A program made the translations under genes and the position numbers. Shown in pieces: positions 16,636 through 42,931 of a stretch of DNA of 64,000 nucleotides. Location of the stretch: assembly GCA_020161775.1 (NCBI GenBank), contig JAIUOW010000001.1:1-64000 (forward strand), written 5' to 3'. Each line of letters starts with the position of its first letter. Position 1 is the stretch's first letter. The stretch is from Pseudomonadota bacterium. Lineage in GTDB: Bacteria > Pseudomonadota > Gammaproteobacteria > Burkholderiales > Burkholderiaceae_C. The notes below the pieces were generated by a model, which saw nothing but the letters and a program-made list of their open reading frames with translations, ran no database searches and was not told where the DNA came from.

Positions 16636-17754
16636 ATGACAGATCCCAAGACCCCTCGCCGCCGCAGCCTTCTCAAGGGTGCCGCCGTTGCCGCTGGCGC
16701 CATGTCCGCGCCGATGGTGATGGCGCAGACCCCTGCGGCCTCGTTCCGCTTCCAGAGCACCTGGCCGGCCAAGGACATCTTCCATGAGTACGCCAACGAC
16801 TTCGCCAAGAAGGTGAACGACATGGCTGGCGGCAAGCTCAAGATCGAGGTGCTGCCCGCCGGCGCGGTGGTGCCCGCGTTCCAGCTGCTGGATGCCGTGA
16901 ACAAGGGCACGCTGGACGGCGGCCATGGCGTGGTGGCCTACCACTACGGCAAGCAGTCCGCCCTGGCCCTGTGGGGTTCGGGCCCGGCCTTCGGCATGGA
17001 CCCCAACATGGTCCTGTCCTGGCACAACTACGGCGGTGGTAAAGCCCTGCTGGACGAGATCTACAAATCCATCAACATGGACGTGGTGTCTTACCTCTAC
17101 GGCCCCATGCCCACGCAACCGCTGGGCTGGTTCAAGAAGCCGGTGTCCAACGTCGCGCAAATGAAGGGCCTGAAGTTCCGCACAGTGGGCCTGGCCGTGG
17201 ACGTGTTTACCGAACTGGGCGCCGCGGTCAACCCGCTGCCCGGCGGCGAGATCGTGCCCGCGCTGGACCGCGGCCTGATTGACGCGGCCGAGTTCAACAA
17301 CGCATCGTCCGACCGCGTGCTGGGCTTCGCCGACGTGGCCAAGAACTGCATGCTGCAAAGCTTCCACCAAAGCGGCGAGCAGTTTGAAATCCTGTTCAAC
17401 AAGGGCAAGTACAACGCCCTGCCGGCGGAGCTCAAGGCCATCATCGACTACGGCGTGCAGGCCGCGTCGGCCGACATGAGCTGGAAGGCGATCGACCGCA
17501 ACTCGAAGGACTACATCGAGCTCAAGACCAAGGACAAGGTCAACTTCTACAAGACGCCCGACTCCATTCTGAGGGCCCAGCTGGACGCCTGGGACAAAGT
17601 CATTGCCAAGAAGGCCGGCGAGAACCCGCTGTTCAAGAAGGTGCTGGATTCGCAGAAGGAATTCGCCGCACGCGCGGGCCAGTGGCAGAACGACTACATG
17701 GTGGACTTCAAGATGGCGTACAACCGCTATTTCGGCAAGGGCAAGAAGGCCTGA
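16636..17754 (+). CDS. TRAP transporter periplasmic solute receptor (DctP family)
   Basis: Captures a carboxylate in the periplasm for the DctQM permease. It has a twin-arginine-type leader (RRRSLLKGAAVAAGAM, processing expected after VMAQ region), then the TRAP receptor fold with KFRTVGL holding the conserved Arg that binds the substrate carboxylate and PGGEIVPALDRGLIDAAEF. Start ATG 16636 is preceded by AGGAGA. 372 aa. The sequence resembles the 2-oxoacid/aromatic-acid branch (TakP/FcbT-like), but the ligand is unknown. Confidence 0.92.
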   Translation: MTDPKTPRRRSLLKGAAVAAGAMSAPMVMAQTPAASFRFQSTWPAKDIFHEYANDFAKKVNDMAGGKLKIEVLPAGAVVPAFQLLDAVNKGTLDGGHGVVAYHYGKQSALALWGSGPAFGMDPNMVLSWHNYGGGKALLDEIYKSINMDVVSYLYGPMPTQPLGWFKKPVSNVAQMKGLKFRTVGLAVDVFTELGAAVNPLPGGEIVPALDRGLIDAAEFNNASSDRVLGFADVAKNCMLQSFHQSGEQFEILFNKGKYNALPAELKAIIDYGVQAASADMSWKAIDRNSKDYIELKTKDKVNFYKTPDSILRAQLDAWDKVIAKKAGENPLFKKVLDSQKEFAARAGQWQNDYMVDFKMAYNRYFGKGKKA

Positions 17755-40995: not shown

Positions 40996-42126
40996 TTATT
41001 TACGCGCGCGGCGCAACTTGACCGACTCCGACAGCACATCCAGCACCTGCAGCGAATCGCCCCAGCCGATGCAGGCGTCGGTGATGCTCTTGCCGTATTC
41101 CAGCGCGCCGACTTCGTCCTTGCCGGGGGTGAACTTCTGGGCGCCGGGTATCAGGTGGCTTTCCACCATGAGGCCGAACACCTGGCGCGAGCCCGCGGCG
41201 ACCTGCGCACCGATGTCACGGGCCACCTCGATCTGCTTTTCATGCTGCTTGCTGCTGTTGGCATGGCTGCAGTCCACCATCAGGGTGGCGGGCAGCTTGG
41301 CGGCTTCCAGTTCCTTGCAGGCTGCGCCGACCGAGGCCGCATCGTAGTTGGGCGCCTTGCCGCCGCGCAGGATCACGTGGCAGTCCTTGTTGCCGTTGGT
41401 CTGCACGATGGCGACCTGACCGTTCTTGTGCACCGACAGGAAGTGGTGGCCGCGCGCCGCGGCCTGGATGGCGTCGGTCGCAATCTTGATGTTGCCGTCA
41501 GTGCCGTTCTTGAAACCGATGGGCGCCGACAGGCCCGACGCCAGCTCGCGATGCACCTGGCTTTCAGTGGTGCGTGCGCCAATGGCACCCCAGCTTATCA
41601 GGTCGCCGATGTACTGCGGCGAGATCACGTCCAGGAACTCGCTGCCCGCGGGCAGGCCCAGGCGGTTGATTTCGATCAGCAGCTGGCGCGCGATGCGCAG
41701 GCCCTCATCGATGCGGTAGCTCTCGTCCAGGTAGGGGTCGTTGATCAGGCCCTTCCAGCCCACCGTGGTGCGGGGCTTTTCGAAGTACACGCGCATCACC
41801 ACCTCCAGCGTGCCGGCGTACTTGGTGCGCGCCTCCTTCAGGCGGCGGGCATAGTCCAGCGCGGCGGCCGGGTCGTGGATGGAGCACGGGCCGATCACCA
41901 CCAGCAGGCGGTCGTCCTTGCCAGCCATGATGTTGTGGATGTTGCGGCGGGTTTCGGTGATCAGCGTCTCCACGGGCGTGCCGCGGATGGGAAAGAAGCG
42001 GATCAGGTGTTCAGGAGGGGGCAGCACGGTGATGTCCTTGATGCGTTCGTCGTCGGTCTGGCTGGTTTTGTCGACGGGGTTCGCATACCAGGCATCGGAG
42101 CCGGGGGCGGTGGCTTTGGCGTTCAT
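40996..42126 (-). CDS. aroG: 3-deoxy-7-phosphoheptulonate (DAHP) synthase, class I
   Basis: First step of the shikimate pathway: PEP plus erythrose-4-phosphate to DAHP. 376 aa with VVIGPCSIHDPAAAL (metal-binding Cys), YFEKPRTTVGWKGLINDP, GARTTESQVHRELASGLS and VDCSHANS. The start is preceded by GGAG. I use aroG generically; E. coli has three such isozymes with different feedback inhibitors and the type cannot be settled by eye. The gene has a ~190-nt leader that looks like a transcription attenuator. Confidence 0.95.
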   Translation of the reverse strand: MNAKATAPGSDAWYANPVDKTSQTDDERIKDITVLPPPEHLIRFFPIRGTPVETLITETRRNIHNIMAGKDDRLLVVIGPCSIHDPAAALDYARRLKEARTKYAGTLEVVMRVYFEKPRTTVGWKGLINDPYLDESYRIDEGLRIARQLLIEINRLGLPAGSEFLDVISPQYIGDLISWGAIGARTTESQVHRELASGLSAPIGFKNGTDGNIKIATDAIQAAARGHHFLSVHKNGQVAIVQTNGNKDCHVILRGGKAPNYDAASVGAACKELEAAKLPATLMVDCSHANSSKQHEKQIEVARDIGAQVAAGSRQVFGLMVESHLIPGAQKFTPGKDEVGALEYGKSITDACIGWGDSLQVLDVLSESVKLRRARK

Positions 42127-42176
42127 CGGGTCACTCCTGAAGTCAGTTGGTTTTGAAATGGAAAAGTGAGGGGCAT

Positions 42177-42205
42177 AAAAAAACCGCCGGGGGTCCGGCG
42201 GTTTT
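42177..42205 (-). terminator. Attenuator terminator in the aroG leader
   Basis: On the minus strand AAAACCGCCGG, loop ACCC, then CCGGCGG and a run of seven T. It lies 51 nt before the aroG start and 22 nt after the stop of the aromatic leader peptide, so it can stop transcription before aroG. Confidence 0.9.
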
Positions 42206-42265
42206 CTTGGGAGATTCTGTTGCGCTGTTACTTGCAGGTACGCTCAGAACTCTCAACCGCCGGGG
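42195..42265 (-). promoter_or_regulatory. Candidate antiterminator of the aroG leader
   Basis: The minus-strand segment CCCCGGCGGTT at 42255-42265, inside the leader ORF just after its aromatic codons, is identical to the terminator's right arm. It can therefore pair with the terminator's left arm (42195-42205) and prevent the terminator. The mutually exclusive pairings are read directly from sequence; the regulatory role is inferred from trp/phe-type attenuators. Confidence 0.7.
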
Positions 42266-42317
42266 CGTTGGAGAACCAAAAGTAGCCAAAAAAGTAAAAA
42301 CGGGCTGCGAAATGCAT
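42228..42317 (-). CDS. Aromatic-rich leader peptide of aroG
   Basis: A 29-codon ORF starting MHFAARF. Residues 7-15 read FYFFGYFWF, eight aromatic residues of nine (five Phe, two Tyr, one Trp), with another Phe at position 3. The tail NAPAVESSERTCK spans the antiterminator segment, then TAA. As in trpL and pheL, slow decoding of these codons when charged aromatic tRNAs run low would let the antiterminator form. No clear Shine-Dalgarno is seen; see the promoter entry. Confidence 0.8.
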   Translation of the reverse strand: MHFAARFYFFGYFWFSNAPAVESSERTCK

Positions 42318-42324
42318 AAGCCGA

Positions 42325-42333
42325 AATGTAGCA
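42325..42333 (-). promoter_or_regulatory. Candidate extended -10 promoter of the aroG leader
   Basis: Minus strand TGCTACATT, an extended -10 element. A possible -35, TTGGAG, lies 19 bp upstream. Only 7 nt separate the -10 from the leader ATG, so transcription would start at or next to that ATG, implying a leaderless leader ORF. Confidence 0.45.
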
Positions 42334-42373
42334 CAGGCTTTGCGCGCGGCTCCAAGCCGGTGTGGCGGCGCCG

Positions 42374-42931
42374 TCACAGCCGCAGCTTTTTCCACCAGGC
42401 CATGGCCCGCTCCACGCGGGGTTCCTCCAGCGCGGCCACGGCCGATTCCTCGGGCGCCGCCCGCGCGGCCAGCTGCTCGTACATGTCGATCAGCAGCATG
42501 CCCTCGCCCAGCGTGCGCCAGGCCACCAGCTCGAAATCGTCGGCGCTCAGGCCCAGCATTTCGCTGTGGGAGCCGCCGTCCAGCAGCCACTGGCCAATCA
42601 GCACGCGCAGGTTGTTCAGCGCCTGCAGGTAAGCCGCGTATTCGTACAGGCCGCGCCAGGCCACGCCCAGGCCCACCACCAGCGCGCGGTGACCGCGCAG
42701 CACGGTCAGCAGGTCCATCAGCAGCGGCGCCACGGACGCGCGCTGGCGGCTCAGGCGCAGCGCGGCAACGATGGCCTCGATGTGCGTGGCCAGCGTGCCC
42801 ATGCTTTCACTGAACTGGCGGCAGTCTTCGTCGGCAACCGAGCCACGCAGGAAATGGCTCAGCTCGCCAAAGGTCTGGATGCTGGGCAGCAGCGTCGTGC
42901 GGTCAATCGACAGCCGCGAGTTCATGGACAC
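42374..42931 (-). CDS. Hypothetical helical protein
   Basis: A 185-aa, mostly helical, soluble-looking protein (IQTFGELSHFLRGSVADEDCRQFSESMG..., ending EEPRVERAMAWWKKLRL). No domain recognised. The start is GTG 42931 or ATG 42925, just 5-11 nt after the tldD stop, suggesting they share a transcript. Confidence 0.7.
   Translation of the reverse strand: MSMNSRLSIDRTTLLPSIQTFGELSHFLRGSVADEDCRQFSESMGTLATHIEAIVAALRLSRQRASVAPLLMDLLTVLRGHRALVVGLGVAWRGLYEYAAYLQALNNLRVLIGQWLLDGGSHSEMLGLSADDFELVAWRTLGEGMLLIDMYEQLAARAAPEESAVAALEEPRVERAMAWWKKLRL

Follow-up and report, generated by a model that had tools for sequence, protein, structure and literature searches.

The window, by which we mean the whole 64,000-nucleotide stretch of DNA that was analyzed, carries on its minus strand a leader ORF, a terminator-like hairpin and the gene aroG, in that order. 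The aroG gene (40996-42126, with its start at 42126) encodes a class I DAHP synthase of 376 aa, which scored 525.6 bits against TIGR00034 (cut-off 173.2). The leader ORF (42228-42317) has 29 codons, running from an ATG at 42317 to a TAA that ends at 42228, and would encode the peptide MHFAARFYFFGYFWFSNAPAVESSERTCK. Codons 7-15 (42273-42299), the putative regulatory codons, specify F Y F F G Y F W F, with eight aromatic residues among the nine. The ORF lacks a Shine-Dalgarno sequence and is probably translated from a leaderless transcript, and an extended -10 promoter element, TGTGCTACATT (42325-42335), stands just upstream with 7 nt between its last base and the ATG.

Four RNA segments can be recognized within and behind the ORF. 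Segment 1, UUCUC (42271-42275), lies right behind the Trp codon and, in predicted folds, can pair with a downstream purine tract to form a 1:2 hairpin. Segment 2 (42245-42265) consists of CCCCGGCGGTT, the purine tract GAGAG and TTCTG, and its partner in the pairing tests is either segment 1 or segment 3. Segments 3 and 4 (42177-42205) make up an intrinsic terminator, AAAACCGCCGG-ACCC-CCGGCGG-T7, which begins 22 nt past the leader stop; its run of seven T ends at 42177, about 50 nt before aroG. Ahead of the terminator lies CAGAAUCUC (42211-42219), which in the antiterminator folds is the partner of GAGA(G)UUCUG and would extend the antiterminator. The sequence-only reading of this region had described the aromatic ORF, the hairpin with seven T ahead of aroG, and an 11-nt segment of the ORF identical to the right arm of the terminator. 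All three were borne out: CCCCGGCGGTT is present twice, in the ORF (42265-42255) and in the right arm.

A hypothetical ORF (42374-42931) and tldD lie upstream of the leader in the same orientation, with a gap of 56 nt between the end of the closer gene and the leader ATG. In the window, the frame of the leader continues upstream without a stop as far as a GTG at 42590, which would make an ORF of 120 residues, and therefore the ATG start was assigned from the promoter and from the relatives, where an in-frame stop was found within 30 codons upstream of the ATG in 56 of 105 leaders.

Several comparisons within the window indicated that the arrangement is unusual. None of 200 dinucleotide shuffles was predicted to fold as well as the 159-nt leader itself (z -3.45). 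Counted once per stop, the minus strand has 248 ATG-initiated ORFs of 12-50 residues and the plus strand has 205, and the leader was the only one with more than five aromatic residues in any nine. Among those with at least four in nine, one other, at 17698 on the plus strand (four of nine), was followed within 110 nt by a terminator-like hairpin; this short ORF, MVDFKMAYNRYFGKGKKA, probably precedes its hairpin by chance. A generic consensus scan of 42000-42700 listed no promoter and no terminator. The terminator was presumably missed because A-U pairs of the stem use up the T run, and the promoter because the scan model has no extended -10.

A protein search found aroG to be the only DAHP synthase in the genome. 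The second match to PF00793 in a profile search was a KDO8P synthase, not a DAHP synthase, and the same type of search gave no match to the class II enzyme (PF01474). Profiles for HTH_50 (PF18024), which we take to be the TyrR-type HTH, and for TrpR (PF01371) also had no match in the genome, and the E. coli controls were positive for both.

Distribution of the leader among relatives

A total of 110 aroG loci were examined, comprising the best 80 of 593 named loci and 30 from a search of the window's family, with the window included; the two sets may overlap in species. The named loci include Polaromonas, Variovorax and Acidovorax, and a few (Polynucleobacter, Solimonas and others) lie outside the family. 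Judged by these names, the window probably belongs close to Comamonadaceae in the order Burkholderiales. An aromatic-rich leader ORF preceded aroG in 105 of the 110 loci, the window among them, and these 105 are referred to below as the family-and-named set. The five loci in which the leader was absent were one at a contig end (L029), one from Cupriavidus (L080) and three from Polynucleobacter (L076, L078 and L081). Two other Polynucleobacter loci (L058 and L062) have the leader, and it is possible that it was lost inside this genus. One further locus, from a Ramlibacter metagenome bin (L021, 1370-1530), jumps from inside the left arm of the terminator to approximately codon 13 of aroG, and this junction represents either a deletion or an assembly error.

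In order to survey more genomes, a covariance model was built from 59 leaders under 80% identity. Within the family, aroG was matched at E ≤ 1e-80 in 197 of 200 genomes and the model at E ≤ 1e-6 in 194 of 200. The six genomes without a model match were drafts no more than 90% complete, and three of them also lacked an aroG match. One matching genome (G162, 70% complete) had two copies of aroG, on contigs C327 and C42, with an own leader at each; the other 193 had a single leader match each, though two aroG matches were common.

The model also found matches across the order. In a sample of 300 genomes it matched 106 at E ≤ 0.001, and 76 had a full-model match at E ≤ 1e-5, spread over the window's family and 13 other family labels. 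The remaining 194 of the 300 had no match at E ≤ 0.001 in this search, which covered the leader element alone and which, like every run against more than 40 genomes, applied tighter filters at the cost of weak matches. Forty of the order matches from outside the family, chosen rather than drawn at random, were fetched with their surroundings, and 37 lay directly before an aroG gene (58-75% identical). All 36 with E ≤ 1e-5 adjoined aroG, and three weak ones did not. These weak matches (L140, L141 and L142) and a partial match (L153) were discarded, as tblastn found no aroG beside them.

A sample of 274 genomes of the class gave full-model matches at E ≤ 1e-5 outside the order only in one family label (f63), in two genomes, again before aroG. 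In all, the element was seen together with aroG outside the order in few genomes: the two of f63 (L151 and L152) and a Solimonas sp. (L061). Solimonas is a gammaproteobacterium, and the aroG of L061 is 82% identical to that of the window, which suggests that this contig reflects transfer or contamination.

Coding signal, promoter and alternative pairings

The leader ORFs carry codons for the products of the pathway in nearly every case. Of 102 distinct leaders, 93 encode Phe, Tyr and Trp, eight encode Phe and Tyr, and one encodes Phe alone; the frame of six leaders (L020, L027, L060, L064, L072 and L077) was set from the ORF list or by re-reading. Variation among the leaders was of the kind expected of a translated sequence under coding selection. 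The aromatic columns interchange F, Y and W, and synonymous codons were used for the same residues (Phe TTT 290 and TTC 165; Tyr TAC 92 and TAT 66). One column, adjoining segment 1, is Trp in 85 of the 102. The two Phe columns that flank this Trp were nearly fixed in codon (TTT in 91 of 99, TTC in 86 of 89), as expected if RNA pairing constrains the sequence there too.

The promoter element was regular as well. In 100 of 104 leaders (L020 omitted), the motif TGnTAnAnT, mostly as TGTGCTACATT, ended at a distance of 6-8 nt from the ATG, and none of 18,736 background positions in more distal upstream sequence of these loci carried it; bases upstream of the -10 were hardly conserved. No Shine-Dalgarno sequence was found at the leader ATG in any of 104 leaders (here L021 was left out, since its terminator and aroG start are missing), whereas at the same loci an ATG start could be assigned to 71 aroG genes, of which 62 had one. 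The usual spacing of a promoter puts the transcription start at or beside the A of such an AUG. The -10 spacing therefore points to a leader transcript that is probably leaderless in the family-and-named set. The picture was mixed in the other families, where TANNNT was found at 4-9 nt in 16 of 39 leaders and a Shine-Dalgarno-like motif in three of 39.

An intrinsic terminator lies between the leader ORF and the gene in nearly all of the family-and-named set. An arm with GGCGG and a T run was found in 104 of 105 leaders (the exception being L021), and a stricter stem search accepted a terminator in 94 of 105. Of the other 11, ten had stems that appeared interrupted when inspected by eye and one (L021) was truncated. 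RNAalifold, run on a MAFFT alignment, recovered only the terminator helix as its consensus and did not find the 1:2 pairing.

Beyond the aromatic run, the motif CCGGCGG-NN-GAGAG was kept as nucleotides, and the frame in which it is read differed, giving PAVESSER in the window's group and GGRE in most relatives. On the alignments, it is thus the RNA, not the peptide, that is conserved past the run. In the antiterminator, the partner of segment 2 is the left terminator arm, and this pairing was examined by swapping partners among leaders. The own segment 2/3 duplexes beat the swapped ones in 100 of 100 swaps, whether all leaders, the family-and-named set or the other families were used, and in 121 of 142 leaders the own duplex was better than those with shuffled partners at p ≤ 0.05. 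An initial antiterminator test had reached p ≤ 5/100 in only 68 of 94 leaders, mainly, we think, because the arms were misplaced in interrupted stems of the Acidovorax type. The swap tests used 142 of 143 leaders.

A single base illustrates how segments 2 and 4 change together. In 139 of the 143 leaders (four had no clear segment), the base before GGCG(G) was equal in the two segments as C/C in 85, T/T in 16 and G/G in one; it was unequal as A/C in 19, T/C in seven, C/T in five, A/T in three, C/A in two and G/T in one. Agreement on T versus not-T was significant (Fisher p 8e-10, with phylogeny not removed), and families with CTGGCGG in the terminator tended to have CTGGCG in the leader as well.

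A second antiterminator helix would be formed by the purine tract and a pyrimidine tract just before the terminator. Swapped partners of the purine tract reached the score of the own partner in 0 of 200 swaps for all leaders, 0 of 200 for the family-and-named set and five of 200 for the other families. An exact complement of a purine 4-mer was present before the terminator in 72 of 142 leaders (mean 18.4 and maximum 30 in shuffles), and GGGA/UCCC and GAAA/UUUC stood in for GAGA/UCUC in some families. Taken alone, this helix beat shuffles at p ≤ 0.05 in 31 of 142 leaders.

The 1:2 pairing was less consistent. It appears in predicted full-length folds of the window leader, and when all leaders were taken together, swaps reached the own pairing in 0 of 100 and 0 of 200 cases with two ways of cutting the segments. 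The corresponding numbers were 26 of 100 and three of 200 in the other families, and within the family-and-named set there was no covariation (58 of 100 and 104 of 200). Only four and eight of 142 leaders, for the two cuts, beat shuffles at p ≤ 0.05.

Two mutually exclusive foldings, and an architecture of the trpL and pheL type, had been proposed from the window alone. The comparison with relatives supports both, as the anatomy matches and the antiterminator pairing co-varies with the terminator. The proposal that these features should recur in close relatives also held: relatives have retained the aromatic run, the terminator and the complementary segment, and these co-vary.

Predicted regulation of aroG and relation to known attenuators

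Together, these data make it very probable that the element is a ribosome-mediated transcription attenuator of aroG. Transcription would start at the leader AUG or no more than one or two bases away from it, giving a leaderless RNA that is translated. A shortage of charged Phe-, Tyr- or Trp-tRNA would stall the ribosome in the aromatic run and keep segment 1 covered, leaving segment 2 (CCGGCGGU and GAGAG) to pair with segment 3 (CUC...ACCGCCGG); formation of 2:3 would block the terminator and aroG would be transcribed. When all three are plentiful, the ribosome would reach the stop codon, segment 2 would be covered or folded on segment 1, and segments 3 and 4 would form the terminator, ending transcription before aroG.

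The spacing of the segments is consistent with such stalling. In 61 of 94 leaders the antiterminator segment began 7-10 nt downstream of the last aromatic codon, and the edge of a ribosome stalled on that codon would lie at about this distance. Equilibrium folding, on the assumption that the ribosome reaches 13 nt beyond the first A-site base, gave a median predicted 2:3 pairing before synthesis of segment 4 of 0.15 without a ribosome and of 1.0 with a ribosome on the last aromatic codon and segment 2 free. With the stalled ribosome, the predicted pairing increased by more than 0.1 in 71 of 104 leaders, and no leader showed a decrease of that size. The window leader had a predicted 2:3 pairing of 1.0 before segment 4 with and without a ribosome, so that thermodynamics alone give no default termination in this leader. 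Its off state would need either a translating ribosome or later formation of 3:4, which, together with 1:2, the full-length fold favored by 7.3 kcal/mol.

Which amino acids are sensed is less certain than attenuation itself. The peptide had been proposed to respond to Phe, Tyr and Trp, and the composition of the leaders supports the sensing of all three end products. It may instead be, though we consider this rather unlikely, that the attenuator senses Phe only, or mainly one amino acid, with the Tyr and Trp codons as passengers. Phe codons dominate (mean per leader 4.5, versus 1.5 for Tyr and 0.9 for Trp), and the aroF operon of Corynebacterium glutamicum is described, in the accessible part of PMC11802643, as answering Phe but not Tyr limitation despite a Phe-Tyr-Phe leader. 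However, Trp, the rarest of the three, holds its own column beside segment 1, and the great majority of leaders encode all three residues. Predicted gains in 2:3 pairing were also seen for stalls at each, with medians of 0.88 for Trp, 0.66 for Phe and 0.61 for Tyr (tenth percentile 0 for each). On the three-product reading, a single leaderless RNA would act as an OR gate, in which shortage of Phe, Tyr or Trp alone opens the committed step. This gate would be widespread in Burkholderiales and would stand in place of the E. coli arrangement, in which TyrR, TrpR and a set of three DAHP synthases under separate regulation are used, a proposal that we judge to be evenly balanced between right and wrong.

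A further idea is that the terminated leader RNA, or the peptide, also acts in trans, like rnTrpL and peTrpL of Sinorhizobium meliloti. The layout resembles that of the leaderless sRNA of S. meliloti as presented in the accessible part of PMC7298713, but the changes of frame past the aromatic run, which leave the peptide there unconserved, make such a role improbable. It is very unlikely that the leader governs the translation or transcript stability of aroG rather than termination. The segments could also affect downstream RNA, yet what is conserved is a GC-rich hairpin followed by a run of T, some 50 nt before aroG in the window, and the aroG starts bear Shine-Dalgarno sequences of their own. 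It is just as hard to credit, and was rejected, that the hairpin merely terminates the upstream genes and that the aromatic ORF arose by chance and has no role: those genes do lie close by on the same strand and the generic promoter scan was empty, but a conserved extended -10, beyond which the sequence is hardly conserved, separates them from an ORF whose aromatic codons are kept through synonymous change and one segment of which co-varies with the terminator.

Attenuation of aroG remains the preferred reading. The mechanism is a classic one, and its use at a DAHP synthase gene is not new as a concept, having been reported or proposed elsewhere. No aroG attenuator of the Burkholderiales was found among the papers listed in searches of the open-access literature (lists of at most 15 or 20 papers); an earlier mention could stand in two comparative studies that reportedly deal with attenuation in proteobacteria, by Vitreschak et al. 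(2004) and by Panina et al. (2001). The accessible parts of PMC2965389 and PMC1262725 contain none. What appears to be new here is the extended -10 just before a leader AUG without a Shine-Dalgarno sequence, and the notable features of the element are its wide distribution and this putative leaderless start.

Among the closest parallels is the aroR leader of the C. glutamicum aroF operon (Neshat et al. 2014, via PMC11802643), where, according to the part of that source available, an aromatic-codon leader also precedes a DAHP synthase gene and stalling raises transcription. That organism is an actinobacterium and its leader is the Phe-responsive one described above, whereas the present leaders include Trp and come from Burkholderiales; the likeness is one of arrangement. 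In Acholeplasma, the uORFC-13-1 motif upstream of aroF has been proposed to act by attenuation and likewise combines a uORF with Phe codons, a terminator stem and a DAHP synthase gene. As described in the accessible part of PMC8632094, it differs in having 24 representatives, from Acholeplasma and environmental sequences, with at least one Phe codon and another sequence; the comparison is by description, and none of the five Rfam matches of the region carries the name uORFC-13-1. Attenuation by tRNA charging has also been put forward at proteobacterial DAHP synthase genes, for E. coli aroF (Camakaris et al. 1980, as cited in PMC8632094 and PMC2659441) and, as a computer-predicted upstream regulatory RNA, for Shewanella aroF (PMC2659441). 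In the available parts of these sources both are a hypothesis or a prediction, listed as sensing Tyr-tRNA, in gammaproteobacteria that also have TyrR.

The pheL-pheA and trpL-trpE leaders of E. coli share the four-segment logic, the regulatory codons and the terminator with a U run, but they control other target genes and respond to one amino acid each. No Rfam family reached its gathering score in the region. The best relevant one, Phe_leader (RF01859), scored 18.7 bits against a gathering score of 55, and membership was rejected. The trpL/rnTrpL RNA of S. meliloti likewise begins with the AUG of its leader ORF, but as given in the accessible part of PMC7298713 it is the Trp leader of an alphaproteobacterial trpE(G) and has experimental support, while the start proposed here comes from promoter spacing.

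TyrR and TrpR, which perform the same task at DAHP synthase genes as DNA-binding regulators, are reported to be absent outside gammaproteobacteria in a comparative study (accessible part of PMC5343134), and this raises the question of how entry to the shikimate pathway is controlled in Burkholderiales, a large order with members from soil, water, plants and animals. An attenuator on the only DAHP synthase gene would supply the missing control, and the element offers a concrete, easily tested answer at the committed step. It would also be of use in engineering strains for aromatics overproduction, and its many natural variants would form a broad data set on the coupling of leaderless translation to transcription. 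Alongside the systems found or proposed in Corynebacterium and Acholeplasma, it would be a likely case of repeated evolution of attenuation at DAHP synthase genes.

A similar arrangement was observed at a second locus of the same genome. Upstream of a trpE-like gene lies a 27-codon ORF, MFIHRTTITGLSDRGAWPWRKPDCVRT (L157:3068-3151, minus strand), with Trp-Pro-Trp. It starts 7 nt after a TACACT hexamer and is followed by a GC hairpin without a T run, and it is perhaps a second leaderless leader, that of trpE.
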